A DNA stretch of 49,753 nucleotides from Alistipes sp. (GTDB lineage Bacteria; Bacteroidota; Bacteroidia; Bacteroidales; Rikenellaceae). This document shows, piece after piece, positions 22,340 to 49,753 of the stretch (within the stretch, counting starts at the first letter, position 1; the number at the start of each line of letters is the position of its first letter). The position numbers were made by a program, and so were the translations under genes. The stretch spans positions 1 through 49,753 of the forward strand of contig JAFTVW010000028.1 in the NCBI GenBank assembly GCA_017465605.1. Reading direction: 5' to 3'. The notes under the pieces were generated by a model. It was not told where the DNA came from and made no database searches. It worked only from the letters and a program-made list of their open reading frames with translations.

Positions 22340-23035
22340 GATAGACTTTGCAGATAGACACACTCCCTCCCCTTCGGGGACTCCCTCTTGCCTTAGAGGG
22401 AGAGTTTTTTATGTCATTCTCTGAAAGGTCTTTAATAAGCGGTAGATTAATCCGCTTTGCGGCTTTTGGTTGCTACGGTTCGGCAAAGTGTGTAAACACA
22501 CTCTGCTCTCACCTTAATCGCAACCTTCCAACATTTTTACATATACCCTGATATTATCACCGCTGGTTAGTTGATGTAAAAATGAGGAATGACGTTTTAT
22601 AATAAAAAAACGCACCGATGAATTTTAGGAAACAGGGCAGGCGGTGAAATTTCCGTTAAAAAACAGAGACCTTTTGATTGCTTCAAAAGTGCGAAGCATC
22701 TGTTTTAGGAAATTTTATTGACTGACCCCTAAAATTTATCATTGCGCCGCTTTTTGCCCCACTTTTTACGGCTAAAAAGTGGGATAAAACATAAAACCTT
22801 GCTCCCAAAAAAGACATTGCAGCAAAGACACACTCCCTCCCCTTCGGGGACTCCCTCTTGCCTTAGAGGGAGAGTTTTGACTGTTCTTTGGAAGGCCGTA
22901 AATAAAAGGTCGATTTCAACATTTTTACATATACCCTGATACTATCATCGCAGGTCGGTTGATGCGAAAATATGAAATGACGTATCTGATATGAATACCC
23001 TGCCTAACTTGATGTTAGACAGAGTATTTAGTCAA
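22340..23035. repeat. Composite repeat island 1 (modules A-B-C-D-A-B-T)
   Basis: Fills the gap between the convergent peptidase and transposase genes. Module A (22361-22408 and 22829-22878) is a CCTTCGGG hairpin followed by CTCCCTC/GAGGGAG and a T-run. Module B has arms CATTTTTACAT/ATGTAAAAATG at 22532-22542 and 22574-22584, with a second, hybrid copy at 22918-22983. Module C (22603-22722) folds into one long interrupted stem: AAATTTCC/GGAAATTT, AAACAGA/TCTGTTT and CTTTTGA/TCAAAAG. Module D (22736-22800) has CCCACTTTTT/AAAAAGTGGG. The minus-strand terminator T overlaps the transposase stop. Two short open frames in it are repeat shadows. Confidence 0.85.
22995..23027 (-). terminator. T-module terminator overlapping transposase stop codon
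   Basis: On the minus strand CTGTCTAAC pairs with GTTAGGCAG (one wobble), a variant of the stem repeated after polA and fabI. The TAA stop of the transposase (23015-23017) lies inside it, so the last codons are repeat-derived. Confidence 0.7.
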
Positions 23036-24028
23036 TTGTGAATTCCCAAGATGCATCTGATGGCGGAAATGGAGATACCACCTCACATACTCCTCGCTAT
23101 GGCGACGTGAAAGACCTCGATGCAGCGATATATTCTCTTTGAGCTGGCCGAAAAATGCCTCCAATGCCGAGGTTGTACGCGGCATACCGGCGTGGTCAAC
23201 AAAGTTGAACATATTGGGCAAGGCGCGCCTAAGCTGGGTGTATGCCTTACACACCATACGATGCTCCTTCCATTCGACTCCCGACACAAAAGGACCACTC
23301 TTGCGACAAACATACTCCTTGTGCTTAATGCACCACGCATCGAATGCCGCAACCCACTCGGCCCTATCAGTTGCACTGCGCACCGTACAGATACGACCTA
23401 CCAACCGACGTAGCTCTTTGGCTGCGTCGCTATGCGGAAAACGAGTAATCCAGTTTAGGCATTCGCGTTGTATGTGAGCCACACAACGTTGCCGCACCAC
23501 ATCGGGACAAGCCTGTTCGACAGCTCTGATAATGGCAGGGCTGCCGTCCGTTGTGATGCTTTTAATTTTTACTCCGATGGCCCTGATAGTGTTCAGGTCT
23601 TCAACTATCTCACACGCTCTCTCATCATCGGTGATTCTATAAAAGAGAGTTGTTTTTGCAGTTTCGTCTCTGTACAACACAAGACACAAATTGTTGGGGA
23701 ACCAGGTACCGTCAATCAAAAGGTTAATGTCCTTCTCACTTTTTTTAATCTCCCACTCGGGATATGAGCGCAAGTAGGAGTCGAACCATCTCGACAACTG
23801 ACGACTGCTATGACCACTCATCTGCGAAATCTCGGCCACAGTCTGCTTACGCAATATCCACCACTTAAACCATATAAATCGATTGGCACTACTTACATCC
23901 TTTCTTCGCGATGTGAAACAAGTATCACAATTTTTGCACTTGTATCGCTGATGCCCACCCTGTCTTCCCCATTTAATCGTCTCCAAAAAACCACAGTGAG
24001 GGCACCTTTTTCGCCTGGGTGCTGCCAT
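23015..24028 (-). mobile_element. IS256-family transposase, zinc-binding variant
   Basis: A complete 337-residue transposase when started at the ATG at 24028 (MAAPRRKRC); a longer in-frame start at 24154 adds 42 residues with no family look. The N-terminus has a zinc ribbon with two Cys-x-x-Cys pairs (CPHCG and CKNC). The catalytic DDE core is Asp in LLIDGTW, Asp in TTDGSP and Glu in SALEAFFG, with the RCVAHIQRE segment typical of IS256-like enzymes. No stop or frameshift interrupts it. Clear terminal inverted repeats or target duplications were not found by eye, so element limits are unknown; the 3' end runs into a chromosomal terminator repeat. Confidence 0.88.
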
Positions 24029-24465
24029 AAAAAACCTCTTTCGGTATAAAGTGTATTCAAATATACGAAATATTTGTCGGTAAAATAGCATAAAAAGCTC
24101 TTGCCGATGAGAATTTCCTGCGTAATGTTGGCCGTTTTTAGTTGGTGATTCCACTTTTACGGGGGTTAATTATTGTGGGGACAAAACACCTGCATTCACC
24201 TCTTGGAGCCGCTCTACAAATGCTATTCGGCCAACCGCTCAACCCTATGACGCGCAATAATTTGAAGAGTCGGCAAAAAAACTTGAAAAAAAATGTAGCT
24301 TTTCGCCCATTTTTGCGACTATATTAACAAAGAGATATTGTCAAAAGCGATTTTAATATTTATTTTTGTATAATATTTACCGAGTTGGCCCCGTTTAGGG
24401 CATACGAGCAGGGCTTGATTGAGGCTCGGTAAAAAATGTTAAAATTGATAAATATTAATAATAAG
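24029..24465. other. AT-rich spacer with a long-range stem
   Basis: About 435 bases without a convincing gene. A stem TTTACCGAG (24376-24384) / CTCGGTAAA (24425-24433) encloses a smaller GCCCC/GGGC hairpin just before the lipoprotein gene and could be a structured leader. Nothing else is recognisable. Confidence 0.5.
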
Positions 24466-25086
24466 ATGGAATTTTTGAGATTTACAAAACTATTTGCGCT
24501 ATGCATCGTTTGCTGCTTTGCGATGGCAGCTTGTTCAGACGACAAAGAGGAGTCACAGCCCGAACAGCCTGAGGTTGAGCGTGACCCATACTACTTGATG
24601 GAAACGTTGAAAACATCGTTCTTTGTTTACCCAAATGCCGAGTTAAGAGAAATCGCAACCATTACTTGCGATATCACCGACCACAACGGTAACAAGAAAA
24701 CCTACAAACTCAATAAGAACAATGTTGTTGAGGTAGAGATCATATCTAATCAACCCGATGACCCCAATTTGTTTGGCGGTATGACTCGCGCACCGTGGAT
24801 TAACTTACCTGTGACGGCTTCTATGACTGTAAACGCTACATTAAAATCGGACTTTACACCAGACCCAGAGCGTGATTACAATATCGAAATTCAAATCGAC
24901 GGTATGATGACCGCTTACAGCAGCTACGGCAACGAACTCAGCGAGAAGAGAGCTCCTATGACCATCACAAAGAGTTTCAAAGCAGGTGAGGGCCTGACTG
25001 AATGGGTCGGCGAGACTTTCCCCTACATTGTGGAGTTTAAGTGTGAATTTGTGAATAACAAATTCCAAGTTACGCAGGTAAAGTAG
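24466..25086 (+). CDS. Hypothetical lipoprotein
   Basis: A 206-residue protein from the ATG at 24466 (an in-frame ATG at 24436 would add 10 residues). It has a type II signal with lipobox AMAAC, lipid attachment at Cys23 and an acidic SDDKEES tether, so it is a membrane-anchored, probably outer-membrane lipoprotein. The remainder is beta-rich with no motif recognised. It lies between an IS transposase and sppA in an AT-rich stretch. Function unknown. Confidence 0.8.
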   Translation: MEFLRFTKLFALCIVCCFAMAACSDDKEESQPEQPEVERDPYYLMETLKTSFFVYPNAELREIATITCDITDHNGNKKTYKLNKNNVVEVEIISNQPDDPNLFGGMTRAPWINLPVTASMTVNATLKSDFTPDPERDYNIEIQIDGMMTAYSSYGNELSEKRAPMTITKSFKAGEGLTEWVGETFPYIVEFKCEFVNNKFQVTQVK

Positions 25087-25107
25087 GCATAGAATCCAAA
25101 CAAGCTA

Positions 25108-29930: not shown

Positions 29931-29970
29931 AAGGGGTTGCCCAACATACTTGTTGGACAGCCCCTATGTT
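29931..29970 (+). terminator. Terminator (AAGGGGTTG family) after fimbrillin-like gene
   Basis: AAGGGGTTGCCCAACA pairs imperfectly with TGTTGGACAGCCCCT around a short loop, then TATGTTTT. The sequence closely resembles the pgk terminator at 45490-45531. Confidence 0.8.
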
Positions 29971-35599: not shown

Positions 35600-35866
35600 G
35601 TTTCAAAGAAAGACTTTGCGGCAAAGACGCACTCCCTCCCCTTCGGGTACTCCCTCTTGCCTTAGAGGGAGAGTTTTTGGTTGTTCTTAGGAAGGTTTTT
35701 AATAAGCGGTTGATTCCAACATTTTTACATAGAACCTAATACCATCACAGTAGGTTAATTAATGTAAAAATGAGGAATGACATGTATATAAAAAATACTC
35801 TATCTAACTCGATGTTAGATAGAGCAATAACTCAATTTTGAATTTTGAATTCTGAATTTTGAATTC
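35600..35866. repeat. Composite repeat island 2 (modules A-B-T-E)
   Basis: Lies between the convergent DUF5672 and polA genes. Module A (35626-35676) has CTCCCTC/GAGGGAG then five T on the plus strand. Module B has arms at 35720-35730 and 35762-35772 (CATTTTTACAT/ATGTAAAAATG). T is the polA terminator, followed by a heptamer-like run of TTTGAAT units (module E) that touches the polA stop codon. Confidence 0.85.
35790..35826 (-). terminator. T-module terminator of polA
   Basis: CTCTATCTAAC / GTTAGATAGAG with loop TCGAT; on the minus strand it is followed by TATTTTTTATATA. The same stem occurs after fabI and after the outer-membrane protein gene. Confidence 0.9.
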
Positions 35867-38800: not shown

Positions 38801-38911
38801 AAACAGAATTGAGGTGTTCATTCCGTGACGATTGCGCATAGGTCGCCCCATAAAGGCGTAGTAGTATTTGAATACGAGCGCGTAGGCATCGATTAGAAAA
38901 AGTCGTTTCAA
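35867..38911 (-). CDS. polA: DNA polymerase I
   Basis: A 1014-residue Pol I with the three usual domains: 5'-3' exonuclease (~1-290), 3'-5' exonuclease (~430-620) and polymerase (~640-1014). The proofreading site looks intact (FDTETTG, then EYAAEDADITM). Polymerase motif A is DYSQVELR, the O-helix has KTANFGIIYG, and motif C is VHDEV. The ~130-residue linker between the first two domains is expanded and of low complexity (Pro, Gln, Ala, Ser), partly coded by 18-bp tandem repeats at 37869-37920; this explains the length above the usual ~930. It follows queD by 61 bases and is probably co-transcribed. Confidence 0.97.
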   Translation of the reverse strand: MKRLFLIDAYALVFKYYYAFMGRPMRNRHGMNTSILFGFTKFLRDIQKRESPDLLGVALDPKGGSFRNQMFADYKANRPETPEDIIASVPYLCRLLRAMRIPVYEIEGYEADDVIGTLAYRGSEAGYDVYMVTPDKDYGQLVGPNRKLYKQKGEGVEIIDSEAICEKYGISDPILVRDILAIWGDASDNIPGVPGIGEKGACKLVGEWGDVETILANIQNIKGKQGEKIAAWGDKLLLAKRLTTICTDVPVEFNPDDLAICPPNIDELKALYAELDFTSFLRDIHNLAPIEDSTAPKQAPQRQLTEMAQAKSAEKKRQAMMGQGDLFAAFDAQPAQPLQPAQPLQSAQSARLTQSARPQQSLFGSEGSEPTLTPEPMPEPMQKAQPIELSDDVTTSDAKTPDMEGADSEPQPMATAATTPHTYHLITEIADLQALVKRLMQRDEFCFDTETTGFDIFNDRIVGMSFAIEPHEAWYVSFTPENSTAFAEVVRPLFEAEHIAKVAQNIKFDIMVLSRLGIEVRGRKIDTMILHYLFDAESRHNMNFLAERYLNYSPIAIETLIGKGSRQLTMDQVNIMSVKEYAAEDADITMQLKEVLWPEVVAQGLEELYLKVEEPMIDVLVDMELAGVKIDSQILADYSVELTAMLEELEREIREIADEPTLNVNSARQLGEVLFAKLRITDKPKMTKTRQFSTDEEYLQGFAHSHRIVELILQYRGVKKLLSTYVEALPLLVNRTTGRIHTSFNQAVTATGRLSSTNPNLQNIPVRDELGRRIREAFVPADGQHMLLSADYSQVELRLMAHLSGDESLIEAFTQGEDIHSSTAAKLFHKGIAEVTSEERRRAKTANFGIIYGISAFGLSQRLDIPRKEAKELIDGYFATYPKVKEYMDNAIVDAREKGYVETAFGRRRTLRDIASRNAVARGVAERNAINAPIQGSAADIMKLAMIEIRRRMREEGIRSKMILQVHDEVIIDLIASEREAVERIVRESMEGVAKLRIPLVSDMGIGRNWLEAH
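37869..37920. repeat. 18-bp tandem repeat inside polA linker
   Basis: An imperfect unit TGCAGTGGTTGTGCAGGT is repeated two to three times (plus strand). It codes for Gln-Pro-Ala-Gln-Pro-Leu-type residues in the interdomain linker and stays in frame. Confidence 0.75.
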
Positions 38912-38972
38912 TGCAGTGCTTTTTAGCGGTTAAGAGACTGCGCAGATTGCTGTCAGTCGCTATGTAAGTTTC

Positions 38973-39425
38973 TTAAAGATTATCCTCGGCGTACCACTCG
39001 GCATACGATGTGGCCGTTTCGTGCAGGCGTAGAGAATAGAGCTCCACCTCGTCGGGCAGAGATTCCAACAATCGCTCGGCAAAGTCGGCCAGCAGATTTT
39101 CGCACGTAGGCTGGTAATCCACCATCACCAAGTTGCTGTAATGCTCCGAAAGCATATCCCTTAGAACCAAGCCCTGCTGGGTGCGACGCACAATAAACGA
39201 ATGGTCAAACTGCGACACAATCTGCTCTCCCACAATGCGTTTGAGCAGGCCAAAATCCATCACCATACCCTGCTTTGGGTCGTATGAATCTTGCGAAGGC
39301 TCACCCTTGACGGTGACCATCAGACGGTACGAGTGACCGTGTATCTCGCGGCACGCGCCATCGTATCCCTCCAACGAATGAGCGGCCTCGAATGTGAACT
39401 CTTTGGTAAGTCGAATTGTAGCCAT
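38973..39425 (-). CDS. queD: 6-carboxytetrahydropterin synthase (QueD-like)
   Basis: A 150-residue PTPS-family enzyme. The zinc histidines are in FEAAHSL and IHGHSY, with the catalytic cysteine in GACREIHGH. It makes 6-carboxytetrahydropterin from dihydroneopterin triphosphate, an early step to preQ0/queuosine. A 6-pyruvoyltetrahydropterin synthase role is the main alternative, but the Cys-x3-His layout and queA in the same window favour QueD. A -7-like TAACTTTG lies on the minus strand at 39473-39480. Confidence 0.92.
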   Translation of the reverse strand: MATIRLTKEFTFEAAHSLEGYDGACREIHGHSYRLMVTVKGEPSQDSYDPKQGMVMDFGLLKRIVGEQIVSQFDHSFIVRRTQQGLVLRDMLSEHYSNLVMVDYQPTCENLLADFAERLLESLPDEVELYSLRLHETATSYAEWYAEDNL

Positions 39426-39472
39426 AATTCAAAAATATTGTCGGCATAGTCATTGCAACAATACGCCAACGA

Positions 39473-39480
39473 CAAAGTTA
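39473..39480 (-). promoter_or_regulatory. Candidate -7 box of queD-polA
   Basis: TAACTTTG on the minus strand, 48 bases before the queD ATG; an upstream TTTG is 16 bases away, shorter than the usual 19. Confidence 0.45.
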
Positions 39481-39523
39481 ACATTTTTTCACACTTCAAA
39501 GAACACTTTTGCAAAAAAGATAC

Positions 39524-39531
39524 TACCTTTG
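39524..39531 (+). promoter_or_regulatory. Candidate -7 box of tRNA-Ser
   Basis: TACCTTTG, 60 bases before the tRNA start and divergent from the queD box; no -33 TTTG at the standard spacing. Confidence 0.45.
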
Positions 39532-39591
39532 CCTCGGTCAATGCATCATTGTTGACGCAAAAGCGCAATATATGGAGCGTTTGACAAACAA

Positions 39592-39678
39592 GGAAAAATG
39601 CCGGAGTGGTCGATCGGGCCGCACTCGAAATGCGGTGAACGGGCAACTGTTCCGGGGGTTCGAATCCCTCTTTTTCCG
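39592..39678 (+). tRNA. tRNA-Ser(CGA)
   Basis: 87 bases. Acceptor GGAAAAA pairs with TTTTTCC and the discriminator is G. Anticodon stem CCGCA/TGCGG with loop CTCGAAA gives anticodon CGA. The long variable arm (TGAACGGGCAACTGTTCC) marks class II. The T-loop is TTCGAAT. The CCA end is not encoded. Confidence 0.96.
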
Positions 39679-39694
39679 CGGAAACGCAGCAAGA

Positions 39695-39720
39695 AAGTGC
39701 CGAAAATTCGGCACTTTTTG
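39695..39720 (+). terminator. tRNA-Ser terminator
   Basis: AAGTGCCGAA / TTCGGCACTT followed by TTTG, 17 bases after the tRNA. Confidence 0.93.
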
Positions 39721-39903
39721 TTTTTCGATGCCCAGCAAACTTGTTTGTAAGGAGCATAAGAAAAAATAACAAAAGTTTTAACTTTTCTTGCGAAGTTTTT
39801 GCAAGAGCCCTCGCGGCAAGCGGAAGGGAAAGGCGTTAAGCGGAGCAGACCATTGTCTGCGTAGTAGCCAATCCCACTTTTTCCGCAAAATATGGGTTGA
39901 GCC

Positions 39904-39947
39904 AAAAAAATATCCTCAAAGGCCCGATAAAGACCTTTGGGGATATT
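39904..39947 (-). terminator. Terminator of the GlsB-like gene
   Basis: AATATCCTCAAAGG (39909-39922) / CCTTTGGGGATATT (39934-39947), with a run of T on the minus strand. Confidence 0.88.
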
Positions 39948-39994
39948 AGGCATCAATCTGTTTTGCTTTGATTATGGTTGTTGCAAGTTCCGCG

Positions 39995-40264
39995 TTATTC
40001 GGCAGAGGAGTGGCGGCTATTCGTGAAGAGCGACAAAATGCAGAGCAGAACAATTGCTCCGATGACCGATGCAATAAGCGAAGAGAACGTACCTATCGGA
40101 TACCACCCGAAGAGCGATACCAGCCAGCCGCCCAGCAATCCACCGATAATTCCAACAACGATGTTGACAAAGAACCCTGAGCCGCGTCCTCTGACAACGA
40201 GGCTTGCCAGCCAACCAGCCACCAAGCCTATGAGTAGATACCACAAGAAAAACATATCAATCAA
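39995..40264 (-). CDS. GlsB/YeaQ/YmgE family membrane protein
   Basis: An 89-residue, very hydrophobic protein with three membrane segments and the glycine-rich GLVAGWLAS and GIIGGLLGGWL blocks of the GlsB/YeaQ/YmgE (transglycosylase-associated) family. Members are small inner-membrane proteins linked to general stress, with no known enzymatic role. An in-frame ATG three codons later is an alternative start. It is a single-gene unit ending in its own terminator. Confidence 0.9.
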   Translation of the reverse strand: MIDMFFLWYLLIGLVAGWLASLVVRGRGSGFFVNIVVGIIGGLLGGWLVSLFGWYPIGTFSSLIASVIGAIVLLCILSLFTNSRHSSAE

Positions 40265-40385
40265 ATTTTAGAGTTTCACACCATTGACGGTGCAAATTCT
40301 GTACCTTGATGGCTCTTTTGCGCTGATAAATATGCTCGGCAGAGACTCCGAGTGGGCTCTTTAAGAGCGAAATATGGCGAATTGC

Positions 40386-40416
40386 TTTGCAACTTCGCGG
40401 CTTTTGTGTATCTTTG
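40386..40416 (+). promoter_or_regulatory. galE promoter
   Basis: TTTG (40386-40389), a 19-base spacer and TATCTTTG (40409-40416): an exact match to the Bacteroidota consensus. The leader to the galE ATG (40497) is about 75 bases. Confidence 0.85.
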
Positions 40417-40436
40417 GCAGATAAAACAGATTATAG

Positions 40437-40475
40437 TCGAGTTGCCGAGCCGCTTTGTGGCGAGGCCGACTCGCA
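40437..40475 (+). other. Hairpin in the galE leader
   Basis: GAGTTGCC...CCGC and GCG...GGCCGACTC pair into a long interrupted stem in the transcribed leader, about 20 bases before the start codon. It could influence translation; no known riboswitch is recognised. Confidence 0.5.
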
Positions 40476-40496
40476 TAACAATAAATCAAAACAACT

Positions 40497-41522
40497 ATGA
40501 AAGAGATGGTATTGGTTTCGGGTGGAGCTGGTTATATCGGTTCTCACACAGCAGTAGAGTTGATTAATGCAGGTTACGACGTTGTTGTAGCCGACAACCT
40601 CTCAAACTCCGATATGAGCGGAGTGGAGGGTGTTCGTAAAATCACTGGTGTAGATGTGCCGTTTGTCAATGTTGACTGCTGCGACAAGGAGGCATTCCGC
40701 AAGGTTTTCGAGCAGTATAACTTCAACTCGGTAATCCACTTTGCAGCCTTCAAGGCTGTGGGTGAGTCGGTGAGCGACCCTATGAAGTACTATCGCAACA
40801 ATCTGCTCTCGTTTATGAACGTCGTGGATTTGATGCGTGAGTTTGGCCGTCCCAATATCGTGTTCTCTTCGTCGGCTACCGTTTATGGCGAGGCCGATGA
40901 GTTGCCCGTAACCGAGCTTACTCCCCGCAAACCTGCCACTTCGTCTTATGGCAATACCAAGCAGATGTGCGAGGATATCTTGCGTGACTCAACTGCGGCA
41001 TACGACGGTTTGAAGGGTATAGCATTGCGCTACTTCAACCCTATCGGAGCGCACCCCTCGGCTCTTATCGGTGAGCTTCCTCGTGGCGTTCCGCAGAATC
41101 TTGTACCGTTCATCACTCAGACTGCCGCAGGTGTTCGCGAGTGCCTGAGCGTCTTTGGCGACGACTACAACACTCCTGATGGTTCGTGCTTGCGCGACTA
41201 TATCGACGTTGTCGATTTGGCAAAGGCCCACGTTGTGGCTATTACCCGTATGGTTGAGTCGAAGAACAAGCAGGCATACGAGATTTTCAACGTAGGTACA
41301 GGCAACGGCGTATCGGTGTTGGAGTTGGTTGGTAGCTTCGAGCGTGTGAACGAGCTTAAACTCAACTACAAGATTGCTCCTCGCCGTCCGGGCGATGTGG
41401 TGGCTATTTGGGCCGACACCACTTTGGCAAACGAGGAACTCGGCTGGAAGGCAGAACGCTCGCTCGATGATACACTCCGCTCGGCGTGGGCGTGGGAGAA
41501 AAATGTGCGTGGCATAAAATAA
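40497..41522 (+). CDS. galE: UDP-glucose 4-epimerase
   Basis: A 341-residue extended SDR converting UDP-glucose and UDP-galactose into each other with bound NAD+. The nucleotide motif GGAGYIGS is at the N-terminus; the catalytic Ser/Tyr/Lys lie in FSSSATVYGE and SYGNTKQ. Length and the C-terminal PRRPGDV block are typical. It has an excellent promoter of its own. It supplies UDP-galactose for glycans and channels galactose from beta-galactosidase action into the cell. Confidence 0.96.
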   Translation: MKEMVLVSGGAGYIGSHTAVELINAGYDVVVADNLSNSDMSGVEGVRKITGVDVPFVNVDCCDKEAFRKVFEQYNFNSVIHFAAFKAVGESVSDPMKYYRNNLLSFMNVVDLMREFGRPNIVFSSSATVYGEADELPVTELTPRKPATSSYGNTKQMCEDILRDSTAAYDGLKGIALRYFNPIGAHPSALIGELPRGVPQNLVPFITQTAAGVRECLSVFGDDYNTPDGSCLRDYIDVVDLAKAHVVAITRMVESKNKQAYEIFNVGTGNGVSVLELVGSFERVNELKLNYKIAPRRPGDVVAIWADTTLANEELGWKAERSLDDTLRSAWAWEKNVRGIK

Positions 41523-41603
41523 ATGCTCGGTTGTAACGTTATTATAAGGCACACATATTGTGTTGAGTAAGAATCGTTATTGACCAATAGCAAAACATAT
41601 AGT

Positions 41604-42269
41604 ATGATGAAAAAATTGATGATGCTCTTGGTGTTGCTCTCGATGTGCGGAACTATGGCACAGGCGCAGAACTACATTCCCAAGTATAAGCGAAAGAAAG
41701 AGGTGCGCGACTACGACCTTGCCAAACCCAATCGCAAGATTGAAATTTCGATTGGCGGTAGCTACAATATGGCTATGGGTCAGTTAGACCGCATCAAGTA
41801 CACCAAGCAGGGATATACAACCAAATACGATGTGAATCCCGAAATTATGGGTGGAAGCCTATTGGTAGGTGCAAGTTATAAGTTGGGTGACCATATCACA
41901 ACAGGTCTTGAAACGGGTGTATTGTTTCAGGATAATGGCTACGCAATGCCCTTGTATGGTACTTTCAACTACTACTATGGCAAACCTACAATGCAACAGC
42001 GTTACCGCTGGTTCAACTATGCGCATTTGGGCCCACAGATTTATATGAGCAACCGCGCCAAGACTATGGGAGCTATGGCTGCTGTGGGTGGAGGTCTGCG
42101 TTTCTTGGCTCGCAAAACGGTGCGTTTCGATCTCTTTGCTGGCTACCAGATTAATATGCGCCGTCCCGAAATCAATCACGCGGGAGCATACGACCTACCC
42201 GACAACTGCGCAAACTTCAAGCAGTATATGCACGTTATTGAAGTCGGATTGAAGATGTACATCTTCTAA
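41604..42269 (+). CDS. Putative outer-membrane beta-barrel protein
   Basis: A 221-residue exported protein (signal MMKKLMMLLVLLSMCGTMAQAQ, start at the ATG 41604 and not the upstream TTG). The mature part has alternating aromatic and glycine-rich strands (ISIGGSYNMAM, SLLVGASYKLGDH, TTGLETGVLF, LFAGYQINM) and ends in a strand with terminal Phe (VIEVGLKMYIF), as in outer-membrane barrels. No closer family was recognised. It follows galE by 81 bases without a visible terminator and could be co-transcribed. Its stop codon touches a repeat-derived terminator. Confidence 0.72.
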   Translation: MMKKLMMLLVLLSMCGTMAQAQNYIPKYKRKKEVRDYDLAKPNRKIEISIGGSYNMAMGQLDRIKYTKQGYTTKYDVNPEIMGGSLLVGASYKLGDHITTGLETGVLFQDNGYAMPLYGTFNYYYGKPTMQQRYRWFNYAHLGPQIYMSNRAKTMGAMAAVGGGLRFLARKTVRFDLFAGYQINMRRPEINHAGAYDLPDNCANFKQYMHVIEVGLKMYIF

Positions 42270-42303
42270 TTCAAGATTCAAAATTCAAAATTCAAAATTG
42301 ACT

Positions 42304-42343
42304 AAATGCTCTATCTAACATCGAGTTAGATAGAGCATTTTTA
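42304..42343 (+). terminator. T-module terminator after outer-membrane protein gene
   Basis: A perfect 16-bp stem AAATGCTCTATCTAAC / GTTAGATAGAGCATTT with loop ATCGA, then TTATT. It lies 34 bases after the stop. Confidence 0.93.
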
Positions 42344-42828
42344 TTACTTTGACACAAGAAATAATTAAAAAAACGCACCGATGAATTTCGGGAAACAGGG
42401 CAGACAGTGAAATTTCCGTTAAAAAACAGAGACCTTTTGATTGCTTTCAAAAGTGCGAAGCATCTGTTTTAGGAAATTTTATTGACAAAAATTAATTGAT
42501 GGATAAAGTCACATAAAAGAGTCGTAAGACTCCCCGAAACTTATCATTGCGCCGCTTTTTGCTCCACTTTTTACGGTTAAAAAGTGGAATAAAACATAAA
42601 ACCGTCATTCTGACATTTTTGTATTGGGGAGGGTAGATGATGCAATTAGTAGCTATACAAAAATGTAAGAATCTACCTTATAAGAAGTGCGTTGCATAAA
42701 GTGACTTTGCGACAAAGACTGTTCTTTGGAAGGCATTTAATAAGCGGTAGATTTCAACATTTTCGCATAGATGTTTATTCTATCACCGCTGGCCGATGAT
42801 GCGAAAATATGAAATGACGTGTATATAA

Positions 42829-42864
42829 AATACTCTATCTAACTCGATGTTAGATAGAGCATTT
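42829..42864 (-). terminator. T-module terminator of fabI
   Basis: CTCTATCTAAC / GTTAGATAGAG with loop TCGAT; TATTTTATA follows on the minus strand. An inverted copy of the terminator at 42304. Confidence 0.9.
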
Positions 42865-42884
42865 AGTCAATTTTGAATCTTGAA

Positions 42885-43715
42885 TTATGAATTCTCCTTG
42901 ATTCCTTTCTCGAAGATCTCCATCAATTCGGGGCTCATCACAATCGACGAGAAGCCGCCATCGTGGTAGAGATTCTGCATTGTAACCTTACGGGTGAAAT
43001 CCGAGAAGAGCGTGAGGATATAGTCGGCGCAATCCTCAGCCGAGGCGTTACCCAACGGAGAGAGTGTCTCGCCATACTCCAATAGGTTGCTGAATCCCGA
43101 TATACCGCCACCAGCAGTGGTAGGTGTAGGAGACTGCGATACGGTGTTGATACGCACATTGCGCTCACGGCCGTAGATGCAACCGAATGAGCGTGCGATA
43201 GACTCCAACAAAGCCTTAGCGTCGGCCATATCGTTGTAGCCGTAGAGTGTACGCTGAGCCGCAAGATACGACAAAGCCACAATCGAGCCCCACTCGTTGA
43301 GAGCATCTTTCTGATAAGCTACTTTGATAACTTTGTGGAACGAGATAGCCGAAATATCGAGCGTCTTCGAGAGATACTCATAGTTTAGATTGTCGTAGGT
43401 GATACCCTTACGCACGTTGGGCGACATACCAACCGAGTGAAGGATAAAATCGAACTTGCCGCCGAAGTGTTCCATTGTCTTGTCGAAGAGCTGCTCCAAA
43501 TCCTCCACTGATGTAGCATCGGCAGGAATAACGATTGTGTTGCACTTCTTCGCAAGTTCGTTGATTGTTCCCATACGCAGAGATATGGGAGTGTTGGTAA
43601 GAACAATTTCAGCACCTTCGGCCACAGCACGCTCGGCTGTTTTCCACGCGATTGAGTTCTCGTTCAGCGCGCCGAAGATAAGACCTTTCTTTCCTTTTAG
43701 CAGATTATTTGCCAT
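42885..43715 (-). CDS. fabI: Enoyl-[acyl-carrier-protein] reductase (NADH)
   Basis: A 276-residue FabI that reduces enoyl-ACP in the last step of each fatty-acid elongation cycle. The modified SDR nucleotide motif GALNENSIAW is near 15-25 and the Tyr-x6-Lys active site is YNDMADAK. Length is typical. The last codons (Asn-Ser-stop) are built from the GAATTC-rich start of the adjoining repeat. It has a TATATTTG -7-like box far upstream on the minus strand (43844-43851), giving a leader of about 125 bases. Confidence 0.95.
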   Translation of the reverse strand: MANNLLKGKKGLIFGALNENSIAWKTAERAVAEGAEIVLTNTPISLRMGTINELAKKCNTIVIPADATSVEDLEQLFDKTMEHFGGKFDFILHSVGMSPNVRKGITYDNLNYEYLSKTLDISAISFHKVIKVAYQKDALNEWGSIVALSYLAAQRTLYGYNDMADAKALLESIARSFGCIYGRERNVRINTVSQSPTPTTAGGGISGFSNLLEYGETLSPLGNASAEDCADYILTLFSDFTRKVTMQNLYHDGGFSSIVMSPELMEIFEKGIKENS

Positions 43716-44065
43716 AACATTGAGTTTTTAGCAGAGACCCCCGCGAGGGCCTCGTGTTGTGTAAAAAATTGTGTTACGAATCCTATTAATCGAGTCGCGA
43801 CCCTCGGGCTAATAATCTTCAAACAACATAAATATTGTCGTGACAAATATAACCTTTTTTTCAAAAACGGCCATATCATTTCTTATTATATCAAACTATT
43901 CGCCGCAAAATGACCTCAAATAGAAATTTTTTTGTTATATTTGTGGCAATTGTAGCCTTATGGTAGGCTCTTAGGTTTGTGCCACTTTGGGCGCAAAAAT
44001 AGATGTGAGATTGAAACAGAGATAATAGACAACAAACAATAAGTTAAACAAAAACAATTCAGACT
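43716..44065. other. Divergent fabI/pgk promoter region
   Basis: 350 bases with -7-like TATATTTG boxes on the minus strand (43844-43851, fabI) and plus strand (43936-43943, pgk), neither with a clear -33. The pgk leader has two hairpins: AGCCT/AGGCT near 43953-43968 and TTTGTGCC/GGCGCAAA near 43976-43998. Confidence 0.55.
43936..43943 (+). promoter_or_regulatory. Candidate -7 box of pgk
   Basis: TATATTTG, about 120 bases before the start codon. The -33 region has no TTTG. Confidence 0.5.
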
Positions 44066-45328
44066 ATGTTCGCAATTGACAATTACGATTTCACGGGCAA
44101 ACGTGCAATCATTCGCGTTGATTTCAACGTACCCCTCAATGGTGAGGGTCAGGTAACTGACGACACTCGTATTCGTGCCGCTATTCCTACCATCAAGAAG
44201 GTATTGGAGAAGGGTGGTTCAGTGATTTTGATGTCACACTTGGGTCGTCCCAAGAAGAATCCCGATCCAAAGTTCTCGTTGGAGCAGATTATCCCTGCTA
44301 TCGAGGCTCGTTTGGGCGAGAAGATTCAGTTCGCAGGTGACTGTATGGGCGAGAAGGCTGCCGAGATGGCTGCTGCATTGAAGCCCGGAGAGGTTATGTT
44401 GTTGGAGAACTTGCGTTTCTATGCTGAGGAGGAGGGTAAGCCTCGTGGCTTGGCTGAGGACGCAACAGACGAGGAGAAGAAGGCCGCAAAGAAGGCTCTC
44501 AAAGAGGGTCCTCAGAAGGAGTTTGTAAAGAAGCTCGCTTCGTATGCTGACTGCTACATCAACGACGCATTTGGTACAGCTCACCGCGCTCACTCGTCAA
44601 CAGCTCTTATCGCCGAGTACTTCCCCGAGGATAAGATGTTCGGTTATGTGATGGAGAACGAGTTGAAGGCTATCGATGGCGTGATGTCTAACCCACAGCG
44701 TCCATTCGTTGCTATCGTAGGTGGCTCGAAGGTTTCTACAAAGATTACTATCATCGAGAAGTTGATGGAGAAGTGCGACAAGATTATCATCGGTGGCGGT
44801 ATGACCTATACCTTCGCAGCTGCTTTGGGTGGCAAGGTAGGTAAGTCAATCTGCGAGCCCGATATGTTCCCCGTAGCTTTGGATATTTTGAAGAAGGCTG
44901 AGGAGAAGGGTATCAAGATTGTTACATCACCCGATGCTCTTATCGCTGACGATTTCTCTCAGGAGGCTAACACCGAGGAGGCTTCTGCAAGCAATATCCC
45001 CGACGCATGGGAGGGTGTTGACATCGCTTCTGAGGGTAAGGAGCTCTTCGCTAAGGAGATTATGGAGTGCAAGACTATCCTCTGGAATGGCCCTGTTGGC
45101 GTATTCGAAATTGATAAGTTTGCAACTGGCTCTAAGGCTGTGGCTGACGCTATTGCTGAGGCTACTGCTAACGGCGCATTCTCACTTATCGGTGGTGGTG
45201 ACTCTGTGGCTTGTATCAACAAGTTCGGTTTGGCCGACAAGGTATCGTATGTTTCAACAGGCGGTGGTGCATTGTTGGAGTATATGGAGGGTAAGGAGTT
45301 GCCAGGTGTAGCTGCAATCCGCAAGTAA
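44066..45328 (+). CDS. pgk: Phosphoglycerate kinase
   Basis: A 420-residue cytoplasmic glycolytic enzyme that makes ATP from 1,3-bisphosphoglycerate. Visible blocks are RVDFNVPL near 18, SHLGRPK near 60, the arginine of [16 protein letters not shown] in the hinge region and the C-terminal LIGGGDSVA. Length is typical. tpiA lies convergently 300 bases on, so two glycolytic genes are neighbours but not co-transcribed. A perfect terminator follows at 45490. Confidence 0.97.
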
Positions 45329-45360
45329 GATTGTTTCTTGTGGCAGCATTGGTGGCCAGC

Positions 45361-45425
45361 TCGTTTGCAAAAACCTCATTTACGCCAAGTAAACTGCGGT
45401 TTCTCGGCCTTCGACAGCGAACCAA
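45361..45425 (-). repeat. Diverged copy of the 124-bp repeat family
   Basis: On the minus strand a core beginning CGAGAAACCGCAGTTTAC and ending near CGTAAATGAGG is nearly identical to the repeat at 194-317, including the TTTAC/GTAAA hairpin. The flanking match is weaker. It lies in the pgk 3' region before its terminator. A further short match (AGTTGTATAACAAG) lies at 45537-45550. Confidence 0.75.
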
Positions 45426-45489
45426 ATCTGCTCACGATAAAAGAATTTTCAATAAATGTAATTTCTGAATAAGAGATTCAAAATCATTC

Positions 45490-45531
45490 AAGGGGTTGTC
45501 CAACAATATTGTCGGGCAACCCCTTTTGTTT
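45490..45531 (+). terminator. pgk terminator (AAGGGGTTG family)
   Basis: AAGGGGTTGTCCAACA (45490-45505) / TGTCGGGCAACCCCTT (45510-45525), then TTGTTT. A near copy of the terminator at 29931. Confidence 0.9.
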
Positions 45532-45573
45532 GAGAAGTTGTATAACAAGGCTTCATCTTATATAAAAATAACA

Positions 45574-45607
45574 AAATAGCCGCTACGCAAAAGCATAGCG
45601 GCTATTT
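45574..45607 (-). terminator. tpiA terminator, bidirectional
   Basis: AAATAGCCGCTA (45574-45585) / TAGCGGCTATTT (45596-45607), with T-rich sequence on both strands. It ends 19 bases before the tpiA stop. Confidence 0.88.
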
Positions 45608-45626
45608 ATTATTTGTGGGGAAGTGA

Positions 45627-46379
45627 TTAGAAACCCTTACCGATAGCGAGGAAGTCCTCAGCCTTCAAAGCTGCGCCTCCGATAAGACCACCGTCAACGT
45701 CCTCCTTAGCGAAGATCTCGGCTGCGTTTGAAGGCTTGCAAGAGCCACCATACAAGATAGGGCACTCAGCAGCTGCTGCGCCGAACTTAGATGCCAATAC
45801 CTCGCGGATATAAGCGTGAATCTCCTGTGCCTGCTCTGCGGTAGCTGTCTCGCCTGTACCGATTGCCCAAACTGGCTCGTAAGCGATTACAAGATTCTTA
45901 AACTGCTCCTCTGTAAGGTTGAATACAACCTCCTCAATCTGAGCCTTGCAAACGTCGAAGTGCTTGCCTGCCTTACGCTCCTCCAAGCTCTCACCTACAC
46001 AGTAGATAGGCTTCAAACCGTTGGCGTAAGCCTGAGCCATCTTCTTGTTCAAAGTCTCTGATGTCTCACCGTAGTACTGGCGACGCTCTGAGTGACCCAA
46101 GATAACGTACTCACAACCCAAAGCTGCAATCATCTGAGCTGCAACCTCACCTGTGTAAGCACCCTTAGCCTCAGTTGCGCAATCCTGCGCACCAACAGCG
46201 ATGTCAGAACCCTTAACTGCCTCAACAACCTGAGAGATGTGAGTGAAAGGAGGGCATACGATGAAGTTTACGCACTCGCAAACCTCGCCACGACCAGCCA
46301 CTACATTCTTTGCCAACTCAACGCCCTCAGCGGGGAGAGTGTTCATCTTCCAGTTACCTGCTACAATCTTTTTTCTCAT
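45627..46379 (-). CDS. tpiA: Triosephosphate isomerase
   Basis: A 250-residue TIM-barrel enzyme interconverting dihydroxyacetone phosphate and glyceraldehyde-3-phosphate. Active-site residues are Lys11 (AGNWKMN), His in ILGHSERRQY and Glu in AYEPVWAIGTG; the phosphate-gripping GGSCKPSN and GLIGGAAL blocks are at the end. It starts 35 bases after the RhuM-Fic gene stops on the same strand, so it may be read from that promoter or from its own in the gap. Confidence 0.97.
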   Translation of the reverse strand: MRKKIVAGNWKMNTLPAEGVELAKNVVAGRGEVCECVNFIVCPPFTHISQVVEAVKGSDIAVGAQDCATEAKGAYTGEVAAQMIAALGCEYVILGHSERRQYYGETSETLNKKMAQAYANGLKPIYCVGESLEERKAGKHFDVCKAQIEEVVFNLTEEQFKNLVIAYEPVWAIGTGETATAEQAQEIHAYIREVLASKFGAAAAECPILYGGSCKPSNAAEIFAKEDVDGGLIGGAALKAEDFLAIGKGF

Positions 46380-46414
46380 TTTTCTTTAAGTTTTATTGTT
46401 TGTAAATTGTTATG

Positions 46415-47398
46415 TTAATTTCTCTTGTTAATAAGATTCACAACCACTTTGGTCATAATGTCTTTCTCCTCGGTACGACTCTCAGCAATCATCAGAGTTA
46501 ATGCCACAAGAGTATTATTGTCTATCAATCGCGAGCCATCTTCGCGGTACAAGATGCCGTTCTTCTCCATAAACCACAAAAACAAGAACGCTGCAATACG
46601 CTTGTTGCCATCACTGAACGAATGGTTTTTTGTAGTCAAATAGAGCAGGTTTGCAGCTTTCTCCTCAACACTTGGATAAAGATCACGACCTCCAAAGGTT
46701 TGATATATAGCCCCCATAGTGCTATGGAATGAACCATCTTTTTCACGAGCAAACAAATCGCTTGCTCCGAATTGGGCTTTCAGCACTTGCAAAGCCTCCA
46801 TCGCACTTTCATATGTTGCACGAAACGGCTCATCTGCGGTGGTATCGGTGATTTCCAACTGCTGGTAATCATATCTGTCAAGCGTATCGAGGCCATAGGC
46901 AAAATCGCTGATGACTCGCAACAACCCGATAGCTTCATCTTTCGTTACCGATTTAGCCGCCAACACCTCGTTCATTATCGCAATCGTTCGTTTCAGTTCA
47001 TCTAACTGTTCTGCCTTGACATTGCGATTGATGGCGTATCCCTGAATCAAATACTCTTTAAGAACTCTATTTGCCCAAATGCGGAACTGGGTACCGCGCA
47101 TCGATTTAACCCTATAACCAACCGATATGATAACATCGAGGTTATAAAATTTTATCTTTCGACTAATTAGCCTACCTCCTTCATCTTGAACTTGTAAAAA
47201 ATCCTTACAAGTTAACGTTCGCTCCAACTCCCCTTCCTTATATACATTACGAATATGCATCGTAATATTCTGAGGTCGAACTTGTAATAACTGCGCCATC
47301 TGCGCCTGCGATAACCACACACTATCACCCTCCAAACGGACATCTAATTCTGTTTGTCCGTCGGAGGATTGATATATGATTATCTCGCCTTTGTTCAT
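46415..47398 (-). CDS. RhuM-type N-terminus fused to a Fic/Doc domain
   Basis: A 327-residue cytoplasmic protein. Residues ~1-120 match the RhuM/virulence-protein domain (a start like IIYQSSDGQTELDVRLE, then WLSQAQMAQLLQV and the IISVGYRVKS and WANRVLKEYL segments), and ~200-320 a Fic domain with motif HSFSDGNKR at 259-267. The motif has Lys where AMP-transferring Fic proteins have Gly; Doc-type kinases also carry Lys there, so phosphorylation or another modification is possible (family knowledge plus inference). No inhibitory antitoxin gene is adjacent. It lies between two housekeeping genes, lysS and tpiA. Confidence 0.87.
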   Translation of the reverse strand: MNKGEIIIYQSSDGQTELDVRLEGDSVWLSQAQMAQLLQVRPQNITMHIRNVYKEGELERTLTCKDFLQVQDEGGRLISRKIKFYNLDVIISVGYRVKSMRGTQFRIWANRVLKEYLIQGYAINRNVKAEQLDELKRTIAIMNEVLAAKSVTKDEAIGLLRVISDFAYGLDTLDRYDYQQLEITDTTADEPFRATYESAMEALQVLKAQFGASDLFAREKDGSFHSTMGAIYQTFGGRDLYPSVEEKAANLLYLTTKNHSFSDGNKRIAAFLFLWFMEKNGILYREDGSRLIDNNTLVALTLMIAESRTEEKDIMTKVVVNLINKRN

Positions 47399-47506
47399 AG
47401 TTATTTATATACCTATGCACAATTATATCTTGTTATCCTAAATCGTATAAGTCGAGCGACATTAAGGCTACTCGCAAATGGGAAAGAGCTGCATCAGAAG
47501 ATTTTA

Positions 47507-49243
47507 CTACTCGGCCTTCTGCGCATCAATCCAAGCCTTCACCTCGGCAGTAGCCAAGCCCAACTTGTTCTTCTTATTGAAGCCGCAGAGGTCGTTGAAG
47601 AGCTTACCGCCACCATTTGCCGCTGTGTTTTGGAACGACTCTACGGTGATATAACCCATCTTCTGGATTGCCTCAACCCACTCGGCGGGGATACCTGCCT
47701 CGACATACTTCTCGGCATCGTCGGCCACAACCTTCTTCTCGGGACGCATAGTTGGGAAGAACAACACGTCCTGAATAGATGGCTGGTTGAGCATAAACAT
47801 CGTAAGGCGGTCGATACCGATACCCATACCTGAGCAAGAAGGCATACCGTACTCCAATGCACGCACAAAATCCATATCGATAAACATCGCCTCGTCGTCG
47901 CCCTTCTCCGAGAGCTTCAACTGCTCTTGGAAACGCTCCAATTGGTCGATAGGGTCGTTCAACTCCGAATAAGCGTTACAGAGCTCCTTACCGTTAACGA
48001 ACAACTCGAAACGCTCGGTCAAATCCTGATTGTCGCGGTGACGCTTGCACAATGGCGACATCTCGCGTGGATAGTCGCAGATGAATGTAGGCTGAATCAA
48101 ATCGCCCTCGCAATACTGGCCAAAGATAGCATCGATAAGCTTACCCTTACCCATCGTATCGTCAATCTCGACATTCAAACGCTGGCACGCCTCACGAAGC
48201 TGCTCCTCCGACTGGCCTGTGATATCGTAGCCTGTCTTTTCGAGGATTGCATCGGTCATAGTAAGGCGGCGGAACGGAGCCTTGAACGAAATCTGCTTGC
48301 CATCAATCTCCAACTCGGTGGTGCCGTTTGTTGCCATCGCTACACGCTCCAACATCTTCTCCGTAAACTCCATCATCCACTTGTAGTCCTTGTAGGCAAC
48401 ATAAATCTCCATACAAGTAAACTCTGGGTTGTGGGTGCGATCCATACCCTCGTTGCGGAAGTTCTTACCGAACTCATACACACCGTCGAACCCACCCACG
48501 ATAAGACGCTTCAAATAGAGCTCCGTAGCGATTCGCATATAGAAATCGGTATCCAAAGCGTTGTGGTGAGTGATAAAAGGACGTGCCGACGCACCTCCGG
48601 GGATAGGCTGCAAGATTGGGGTCTCAACCTCCACATAGCCGTGCTCGTTGAAGAACTCACGCATTGTGGCCATAATCTTTGCACGCTTAACAAACACCTC
48701 GCGCACCTGTGGATTTACAACCAAATCGACATAACGCTGACGATAACGCACCTCGGGGTCGGTCAAGGCATCAAACTGCTTGCCGTCCTTCTCCTTGACG
48801 ATAGGCAGAGGACGAATTGACTTCGAGATAACGGTAAACTGCTGGCAGTGTACCGACTTCTCGCCCGAATTGGTGATGAATGCAAAACCCTCGACACCTA
48901 CAAAGTCACCAATATCCAACAACTTCTTGAATACGGTGTTGTAGAGCGTTGGGTCGCCCTCGGGACAGATGTCGTCGCGGCGGATATATACCTGAATACG
49001 ACCCGTGTGGTCCTGCAACTCGAAAAATGATGCACTACCCATAATTCGGCGGCTCATAATACGACCTGCGATACGCACCTTAGCGTACTGCTCCTTGTTC
49101 TCCTCGGTGAGGTTTTGTGAAATCTCGGCAGCTGTGGCCGTCACATCGTACATTTGGGCTGGATAAGGTTCAATGCCCAACTCGCGCAGCGCGGTAAGCG
49201 ACTTACGGCGCAAAACTTCTTGTTCGCTGAGTTCCAAGCTCAT
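47507..49243 (-). CDS. lysS: Lysine--tRNA ligase (class II)
   Basis: A 578-residue class II synthetase charging tRNA-Lys. The N-terminal OB-fold anticodon-binding domain (~55-170) is followed by the catalytic core with FRNEGMDRTHNPEFT (motif 2) and GMGIGIDRL (motif 3). A C-terminal extension of ~75 residues, after motif 3, is not present in the E. coli enzyme (~505 residues) but is usual in Bacteroidota. A clear promoter lies 80-115 bases upstream, with its -33 box in repeat DNA. Confidence 0.96.
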   Translation of the reverse strand: MSLELSEQEVLRRKSLTALRELGIEPYPAQMYDVTATAAEISQNLTEENKEQYAKVRIAGRIMSRRIMGSASFFELQDHTGRIQVYIRRDDICPEGDPTLYNTVFKKLLDIGDFVGVEGFAFITNSGEKSVHCQQFTVISKSIRPLPIVKEKDGKQFDALTDPEVRYRQRYVDLVVNPQVREVFVKRAKIMATMREFFNEHGYVEVETPILQPIPGGASARPFITHHNALDTDFYMRIATELYLKRLIVGGFDGVYEFGKNFRNEGMDRTHNPEFTCMEIYVAYKDYKWMMEFTEKMLERVAMATNGTTELEIDGKQISFKAPFRRLTMTDAILEKTGYDITGQSEEQLREACQRLNVEIDDTMGKGKLIDAIFGQYCEGDLIQPTFICDYPREMSPLCKRHRDNQDLTERFELFVNGKELCNAYSELNDPIDQLERFQEQLKLSEKGDDEAMFIDMDFVRALEYGMPSCSGMGIGIDRLTMFMLNQPSIQDVLFFPTMRPEKKVVADDAEKYVEAGIPAEWVEAIQKMGYITVESFQNTAANGGGKLFNDLCGFNKKNKLGLATAEVKAWIDAQKAE

Positions 49244-49324
49244 ATATTTCTCTATTTATAAATTTTGCAATGGTAAAAACTCCAAAAAAGGCTTATTACC
49301 TTTGGGTAAATGCGCTTTTCAGCG

Positions 49325-49355
49325 CAAAGTTACCTATTGTAATTCAAAATTCAAA
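49325..49355 (-). promoter_or_regulatory. lysS promoter, -33 box inside repeat
   Basis: On the minus strand TTTG (49355-49352), a 19-base spacer, then TAACTTTG (49332-49325): an exact consensus match. The TTTG belongs to the TTCAAAA-type heptamer run (module E) of repeat island 4. Confidence 0.8.
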
Positions 49356-49753
49356 ATTCAAAATTAAAAATTGGCTAAATAGATATACGTCATTCCTCAT
49401 TTTTACATCAACTAACCAACGGTGATAATATCAGGGTATATGTAAAAATGTAGGAAGGTTGCGATTAAGGTGAGAGCAGAGTGTGCTTGCACACTTTGCC
49501 GAACCGTAGCAACCAAAAGCCGCAAAGCGGATTAATCAACCGCTTATTTACGACCTTGCAGTGTGCGACAACAAAATACTCTCCTTCTAAGGCAAGAGTG
49601 AGCACCCGAAGGGGAGGGAGTGTGTCTTGCCACAAAGGTTATTCTTTGCAACGTGGGTTACTATCAGAATGACGGTTTTATGTTTTATTCCACTTTTTAG
49701 CCGTAAAAAGTGGAGCAAAAAGCGGCGCAATGATAAATTTTAGGGGTCAGCCA
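49335..49753. repeat. Composite repeat island 4 (inverted, modules E-B-A-D), cut by window end
   Basis: Read on the minus strand, module order is D-A-B-E. B has arms 49398-49408 and 49440-49450 and differs from the copy at 22530 at a single core position. The stretch with the ACACACT/AGTGTGT-type motif and the CGGTTC-GCAACC region match 22440-22530. A (49577-49630) has lost part of its stem. D has arms TCCACTTTTT (49689-49698) / AAAAAGTGGA (49705-49714). The island continues beyond the window; there is no T module in this copy. Confidence 0.85.

Follow-up and report, generated by a model that had tools for sequence, protein, structure and literature searches.

In Escherichia coli, bacterial interspersed mosaic elements (BIMEs) consist of two unlike, inverted hairpins that are linked into intergenic mosaics, and a comparable arrangement is seen in repeat islands of an Alistipes sp. 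genome. Four of these islands lie in a stretch of 49,753 nucleotides (GenBank assembly GCA_017465605.1, contig JAFTVW010000028.1), called the window below, which makes up the whole of contig C25 in the draft assembly G000 (2,315,824 bases, 64 contigs, 96% complete). They are composed of non-coding modules, namely a CGTC-tagged hairpin that forms facing pairs and the modules A, C, D, E, F and T. The sharing of modules among the four islands is far beyond chance; searches of the genome returned 70 matches to island 1 and 130 matches to island 3. On sequence grounds, the islands are BIME-like mosaic intergenic arrays and the hairpin pair is a long-stemmed variant of the CGTC-tagged class of repetitive extragenic palindromes (REPs).

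CGTC-tagged REPs, as presented in PMC3733652, have CGTC beside the stem and begin the stem with an A-T and a T-A pair. Head-to-head pairs predominate, with unlike partners in some families, and the elements are mostly intergenic, mainly in codirectional and convergent gaps, and known from Bacteroidetes. All of these traits recur here. CGTC next to the stem was near-invariant in an alignment of the genome's own copies and invariant in a cross-species alignment, the members of which were chosen by patterns including CGTCAT. Likewise, the first two stem pairs were A-T and T-A in 36/36 own copies and in 25/25 cross-species copies, where the selection pattern fixes part of the outcome. CGTC stands at the outer end of the hairpin and, mostly, GGTAG or GGTTG at its inner end. 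In the same paper some CGTC and GTAG pairs are placed within flanking palindromes (for CGTC pairs, in H. neapolitanus), which the inward-facing E tracts at the edges of our islands resemble. The differences concern dimensions and context. The core hairpin described here spans about 75 nt and consists of CGTC, a stem of 16 pairs with a bulge (5 + 11), a loop of about 34 nt and then mostly CTACC or CAACC, whereas the described REPs have stems of 8-9 bp, loops of 4-5 nt and mostly a CCA tail. Furthermore, large mosaic clusters such as these are described there as rare for CGTC REPs, and the nesting of A and F inside the pair is unlike them. Since the sizes of stem, loop and tail differ, the hairpin pair was filed as a variant and not among the four described CGTC families.

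The neisserial intergenic mosaic elements (NIME) and their dRS3 repeats also combine a CGTC-class short palindrome with other repeat blocks between genes, over 200-2700 bp and with ties to rearrangement, according to PMC3898611, and the outer stem ATTCC/GGAAT of our hairpin resembles the dRS3 sequence ATTCCC(N8)GGGAAT. However, dRS3 measures 20 bp, whereas the hairpins here are about 75 nt long and belong to a fixed two-hairpin unit, which sets them outside that size, and they are not known to serve as a target of a phage integrase. BIMEs and REPINs (paired, inverted REPs) of E. coli, as treated in PMC6006769, differ in carrying GTAG on the outside, where CGTC is found here, in having much shorter loops, and in their REP-associated tyrosine transposase (RAYT), which was not found here. 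No description of this hairpin-pair form was found in the open-licence literature searched. Its distinguishing details are a hairpin of double length, nearly constant in size while its stems turn over, A and F nested within the pair, partners that are unlike, E tracts that face inward at island edges, and proliferation in a genome that yielded no Y1 transposase.

Architecture, folding and occurrence of the hairpin pair

Units were aligned in 33 stretches around island matches and in the window, 365,056 bases in all; facing hairpins were sought within 400 bp of each other, and module limits are approximate, as they were set by the seeds chosen for the module profiles. In the paired unit two hairpins stand head-to-head with CGTC outside and CTACC inside. 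The unit has inverted ends of 8 bp (CGTCATTC/GAATGACG) and no coding capacity, and it measures 217-221 bp when A and F are missing. Thirty facing pairs were found, and their spacers form an additive series of four sizes: 58-64 bp in the 10 pairs that lack both A and F, 100-118 bp in the 15 with A, 150-151 bp in the 2 with F and 200-206 bp in the 3 with both. The class of L088 was assigned from its length alone, its alignment row being empty, and two of the 30 pairs are cut by contig ends. The additive series implies a gain of about 55 bp from A, which sits within the spacer, and of about 90 bp from F, which sits at the inner edge of one hairpin, and the alignment indicates that both are optional insertions at fixed places inside the pair. 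In L072 the orientation of A is reversed relative to the other pairs. C-D adjoins the units, T is a palindrome of 16 pairs near island edges, and the tract E is built from a repeat of 7 bp.

Neighbouring hairpins no more than 400 bp apart were head-to-head in 30 cases, reverse in 5 and in the same orientation in 6. Stems were not shared within any of the 26 pairs scored (four of the 30 were dropped, with one stem unrecognized), compared with 4.6 expected (P = 0.004). The fetched stretches held 51 E runs, 41 of them in module-bearing islands, and 34/51 islands had at least one. Within islands E was outermost and facing inward in 41/41 cases, on the + strand at the left edge (21/21) and on the - strand at the right edge (20/20); by eye, an E tract also precedes the hairpin in stretches of the related genomes G142 and G174. 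In islands of another relative, G146 (L115 ~4900, L124 ~9600, L126 ~8950), a shorter hairpin of another stem type but with the same tags was seen by eye, CGTCATAC(T/C)CCG(G/A)AGGCG...GGGTATCTACC.

A covariance model of the hairpin (R1) found 92 hairpins in the own genome at E <= 0.001 among the 150 of 1464 first-look candidates that were scored. Of the pair cells in 36 distinct own copies, 98.4% were standard, and 61 showed a double change, compared with 16.6 after shuffling. When 25 hairpins from the own genome and seven relatives (G142, G204, G174, G150, G225, G215 and G146) were aligned, 93.3% of cells were paired, 84 had double changes against 20.4 when shuffled, and 13/16 pairs included double changes. 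These patterns of substitution indicate that compensatory changes, both inside a species and from one species to another, preserve the folding of the hairpin.

A stem-agnostic pattern (CGTCATT and AATCTACC in this order, 45-75 bases apart) matched 32/180 genomes of the genus, including the own genome, and its reversed form matched 3 genomes. At least five matches were present in 9 genomes, with 39 in the own genome, 14 each in G142 and G204 and 12 in G174, while several of the single matches in the genus resemble ordinary coding sequence. The palindromic-looking matches were mostly 74-78 nt long though the pattern permits 60-90, and their stems were wholly different between species; some matches of 86-90 nt in G089, G204 and G226 are of a different, tandem type. 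In a strict search of other congeners, head-to-head pairs of 189-219 bp were found in 5/20 fetched stretches, all five with unlike stems, and by eye several further stretches had diverged or shorter partners and some had none that could be seen. In the family, R1 matched 4/120 genomes including the own, one of them (G109) from another genus, under strict filters and with at most 39 candidates scored per genome. Among named genomes, a module-D pattern matched Alistipes and Rikenellaceae metagenome assemblies (5 stretches, 3 isolates). Across the phylum the stem-agnostic pattern matched 46/395 genomes with 1-4 matches each, apart from the own genome (39), and most of these looked ordinary by eye. 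The reversed control pattern also matched in many genomes. Apart from the own genome, the sample held five genomes from its order and no other family member; the scan therefore does not demonstrate the element outside the genus, and leaves room for it near the genus. Some part of island 1 matched in 79/180 genomes of the genus including the own, with at most three candidates scored per genome, and C, F or pieces of them are widespread in the genus. Modules C and F may, judging from their matches, have separate histories.

Turnover of sites and position relative to genes

The own genome was compared with G146 at 11 sites where both flanks are collinear and at least one of the two genomes carries a module. 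Four sites were present in one and absent from the other, four were differently filled (L072:5968, L076:5891, L082:4841 and L091:5691) and three were shared. The site of window island 2 measures 345 bp in the own genome and 44 in G146, and at L084:5760 there is E alone in the own genome and a 305-bp island in G146. A single dimer (L092:5692-5910), free of A, F, C, D and T and with a short E-like stretch alongside, was absent from G146, G116 and G174, in which both flanks were found; in G190 the left flank was not found. The island L092:10405-10810 was absent in 6/6 relatives searched, and in a profile scan the hairpin and the modules A, F, C, D and T were all missing from the stretches of these six. 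By eye, the relatives carry a short terminator-like hairpin at this site, which the own genome also has besides the island, and G226 has an E tract and no island. A preliminary description of the window had proposed that the islands spread as non-autonomous mobile elements and that strains be compared for empty sites. Mobility or turnover is supported by the 4/11 sites that are empty in one species, by the dimer missing in three relatives and by the island missing in six.

At the shared sites, 351/356 (L079), 268/273 (L084:3460) and 277/291 (L087) aligned bases were identical; the alignments contained 1, 1 and 15 gap columns, and the flanks were 92.6, 89.0 and 88.2% identical, respectively. 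Where alignments exist, conservation of the shared copies was 93.6% for hairpins and 94.0% for other modules, compared with 70.8% for third codon positions and 85.7% for other aligned intergenic DNA. The idea that island DNA is exceptionally conserved was rejected, as no more than two module-bearing gaps were fully aligned and some island-free gaps were equally conserved (p = 0.08). At one of the differently filled sites (L091:5691-6013, compared with L125 ~4578-4657) the stem of the right-hand hairpin differs and the outer flank is conserved, as if one arm had been replaced. Synteny breaks were seen at island 3 and at L061:2551, and in 6/6 relatives the flanks of the two L062 islands are split between contigs; these may be misassemblies, or perhaps reflect repeat-driven rearrangement at the islands.

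Genes were called with a simple codon-usage caller, and 28 of the 51 module-bearing islands lie at stretch edges and were left unclassed. The 23 islands with both neighbours comprised 9 in convergent, 11 in codirectional and 3 in divergent gaps. Island-free gaps were convergent in 16/213 cases (p = 1.2e-4 against the islands), or in 8/106 when gaps of at least 100 bases were taken (p = 4e-4), and without the three window islands the enrichment gave p = 0.006 and 0.010; the stretches were chosen around islands, and these background gaps are not a random genome sample. Divergent gaps were not significantly avoided (3/23 islands, 28/106 gaps, p = 0.28). The earlier suggestion that such islands fill convergent gaps thus holds as a bias but not as a rule, 14/23 islands not being convergent. 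A similar bias to codirectional and convergent gaps is given for REPs in PMC3733652.

It had also been suggested that A and T are terminators that point inward from both sides. Both fold strongly (A at -21.4 kcal/mol, T at -22.1 and -23.2 kcal/mol on its two strands). A terminator scan recovers both copies of A in island 1 and the one in island 2, all directed away from the gene on the left; it also recovers T of island 2, directed away from the gene on the right, and, on either strand, the left T of island 3. Three copies are missing from its output, namely A of island 4, T of island 1 and the right T of island 3. Termination from both sides is thus plausible in islands 1-3. Two results speak against it as the main reason for the islands. 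Terminator-like sites numbered 14 in 35500-49753 against 13.9 in shuffled sequence, and 3 against 1.4 in 21800-23500. Island ends with E or T faced gene 3' ends in 34 cases versus 22 (p = 0.14), which was not significant, and other ends in 18 versus 6; such ends were rejected as markers of gene 3' ends.

The islands of the window

All four islands first described (22340-23035, 35600-35866, 42270-42884 and 49335-49753) were recovered with their common modules (Table 1), and islands 1-3 do lie between convergent genes, the gene calls placing the right-hand gene ends of islands 1 and 3 inside T and E. The initial list of modules, A-B-C-D-T-E, consisted of real sequences but needed amendment: B is not a standalone module, since by the covariance model it is one arm of the two-hairpin unit, and module F had been missed in islands 1 and 4. 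Island 4, initially given as D-A-B-E, reads in + strand order as E, hairpin, F, A, D and the first bases of C; it is cut by the contig end and its right-hand neighbour gene is therefore not visible. Island 3 has both hairpin arms, and islands 1 (twice), 2 and 4 have one each. Islands 1 (twice) and 2 thus hold half units with A, one of them also with F, and island 4 holds a half unit and a remnant of the other half.

Table 1. Features of the four islands, in window coordinates
Feature	Position	Strand	Basis
Module A, terminator-like double hairpin, island 1	22345..22410	+	profile; fold -21.4 kcal/mol; in terminator scan list
Module F, insertion at inner hairpin edge, island 1	22441..22526	+	profile; insertion point from alignment
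CGTC-tagged hairpin, one dimer arm, island 1; inner end merges with F	22515..22594	-	covariance model R1
Module C, island 1	22603..22723	+	profile; matches in related genomes
Module D, hairpin of CCACTTTTTACGGCTAAAAAGTGG type, island 1	22727..22798	+	profile; fold
Module A, second copy, island 1	22812..22878	+	profile; terminator scan
CGTC-tagged hairpin, second copy, island 1	22903..22982	-	covariance model
Module T, palindrome, island 1; right-hand gene end (23015) inside	23004..23033	-	profile; gene calls
Module A, island 2	35611..35678	+	profile; terminator-like in scan
CGTC-tagged hairpin, island 2	35703..35782	-	covariance model
Module T, island 2	35791..35826	-	profile; terminator scan
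Border tract E, island 2; adjoins stop codon of right-hand gene	35832..35865	-	profile; sequence
Border tract E, island 3 left edge; overlaps stop codon of left-hand gene	42268..42305	+	profile; gene calls
Module T, terminator-like palindrome, island 3 left	42300..42345	+	profile; terminator scan; fold
Module C, island 3	42366..42486	+	profile
Module D, island 3	42537..42603	+	profile
Complete CGTC heterodimer, 217 bp, island 3: hairpins 42603-42682 (+) and 42741-42819 (-), spacer without A	42603..42819	.	alignment; covariance model; stem scoring
Module T, island 3 right	42827..42868	-	profile
Border tract E, island 3 right edge; right-hand gene end (42885) inside	42863..42893	-	profile; gene calls
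Border tract E, island 4 left edge	49340..49378	+	profile
CGTC-tagged hairpin, island 4; inner end merges with F	49388..49467	+	covariance model
Module F, island 4	49456..49541	-	profile
Module A, island 4	49573..49627	-	profile
Remnant AGAATGACGG, outer end of lost second hairpin of island 4 dimer	49666..49675	-	by eye against dimer alignment
Module D, island 4; then first bases of C at contig end	49674..49745	-	profile

In 11 contigs an island-1 match begins at base 1, and the end of the window falls inside island 4; contigs that begin or end within islands mark the islands as assembly break points. Island 1 had no match among plasmids, island 3 none among phages and the exact right-hairpin pattern none among viral contigs, and an origin from any of these was rejected on those searches. 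Over the window, Rfam at gathering thresholds gave two tRNAs and nothing else. Promoter-like matches (TTTACA, 16 or 18 nt, GATAAT/TAATAT) occur at 22580-22551 (-) and 49402-49431 (+), within hairpins of the TTTTTACAT stem type; overall, promoter-like sites were near shuffle level.

Other repeats were seen alongside the islands. A second dispersed intergenic repeat, with a core near CGTAAATGAGGATTTTGAG often following GAAACCGCAGTTTAC, gave 8 fuzzy matches in the own 365 kb and 5 in G146, G116, G190 and G142. Its positions are 70-317 of the window, where it forms a 124-bp tandem pair, 45338-45414 of the window, L062:9938, L089:84, L091:88, L117:7842, L177:1095, L178:4473 and L181:3591. Inverted hairpin copies (AAGGGGTTGCCCAACA...GGACAGCCCCT) at 29931-29965 and 45491-45525 of the window are 86% complementary and possibly belong to another small repeat or terminator family.

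Spread of the islands and its explanations

We consider it probable that the islands are mosaic arrays around a non-autonomous paired-hairpin element, the long-stemmed CGTC-tagged REP variant, which would be mobilized in trans; both its mode of spread and the terminator function are what we infer. In favour stand the dispersal through the genome, the preserved folding, the lack of like stems in the scored pairs, the inward E tracts at island edges, the sites occupied in one species and empty in another, the convergent enrichment, and the negative results for a Y1 transposase and for target duplication. The hairpins would form on single-stranded DNA, where an enzyme acting in trans would copy or move them. 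The least harmful places for new units would be close to the ends of genes, frequently next to E tracts, and it is there that they would become established. Unlike stems would be what allows a pair to persist, a long and perfect palindrome being prone to destruction. The hairpins of A, D and T could terminate transcription of the flanking genes as a by-product, and recombination between repeat copies could remodel the islands and perhaps move blocks of genes. A bolder proposal, which we put forward tentatively and regard as doubtful, is that in this Alistipes-like lineage hairpins with both a CGTC and a GTAG-like end form a class mobilized by a novel non-Y1 enzyme that reads hairpin shape and unpaired ends instead of the sequence of the stem. 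Stems would thus be free to turn over completely between species at near-constant length, unlike stems would be required, and the inward E tracts would be the landing palindrome.

Several observations weigh against the trans-mobilized element. In the own-copy alignment, pairs with a double change numbered 7 against 5.9 after shuffling and further pair types 12 against 13.8, so that neither measure exceeds the shuffled level, and as RNA the hairpin of island 3 has only a modest folding advantage over shuffled sequence (z = -1.6). The three islands common to both species are 95-98.6% identical, which favours retention as well as movement. The assembly is metagenomic, and many islands are found where its contigs end and repeats may be misjoined. 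Terminator-like sites were at shuffle level in 35500-49753. Lastly, no mobilizing enzyme was found, Y1 being the only transposase family searched.

Mobilization of a REPIN or BIME by RAYT as in gamma-proteobacteria, where a Y1 (HUH) transposase recognizes a GTAG-like end (GGTWG by the stem) and spreads the pair, would be consistent with the paired inverted hairpins, with GGTAG or GGTTG by the stem at the inner end, with the intergenic and mosaic setting, with the lack of target duplication and with the REPIN literature (PMC6006769). It is now highly improbable and largely refuted, as Y1_Tnp (IS200/RAYT-type) gave no match in the own genome, where at 96% completeness a gene could be missed, while it did match in 5/14 control genomes. 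In the genus it was present in 2/180 genomes, at full length in G060 and, in G120, as a fragment of 24 positions where a contig ends; the nine hairpin-rich genomes are not among these two, and G060 has no hairpins by the stem-agnostic pattern. PMC3733652 gives CGTC REPs as being without a dedicated transposase, which agrees with the negative Y1 search here. The inverted ends, the length of about 217 bp and the non-coding nature of the unit would also suit a classical miniature inverted-repeat transposable element, moved by a DDE transposase acting on the 8-bp end CGTCATTC. In 24 of the 30 facing pairs, those with readable ends, the mean longest direct flanking match was 0.75 bp compared with 1.05 bp for shuffled partners (P = 0.89), a test in which old insertions could have lost their duplication, and this took such an element from unlikely to very unlikely in our judgement; moreover, folding is compensated while stems turn over between species, which recognition of linear ends would not need.

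Functional terminator or insulator cassettes, selected at gene ends and with mobility incidental and old, would explain the convergent enrichment, the strong folds of A and T and the higher conservation of shared copies relative to third codon positions and other intergenic DNA. We find this unlikely, given that most classifiable islands are not convergent, that four of the comparable sites are empty in one species, that some island-free gaps are equally conserved, and that at L092:10405 the relatives make do with a short terminator-like hairpin, one which the own genome has besides its island. Spread and change solely by homologous recombination or gene conversion among existing islands and E tracts, with no transposition, would be in keeping with the hairpin arms that differ at L091, the synteny breaks at islands, the recurrence of island content in blocks and the lack of target duplication. 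Such a process is nonetheless not very likely to be the whole explanation, since the lone complete dimer at L092:5692, with its short E-like stretch, stands where three relatives have no module.

The means by which CGTC-tagged REPs spread was left open in PMC3733652, and the present clade is a tractable test case for this question: related species differ in their sites, the unit is precise and its ends are known, unoccupied sites are available for comparison, and Y1 transposases are almost lacking. Mosaic hairpin islands of this kind also break metagenome assemblies, which is relevant to anyone inferring the order of genes from draft genomes of this sort.

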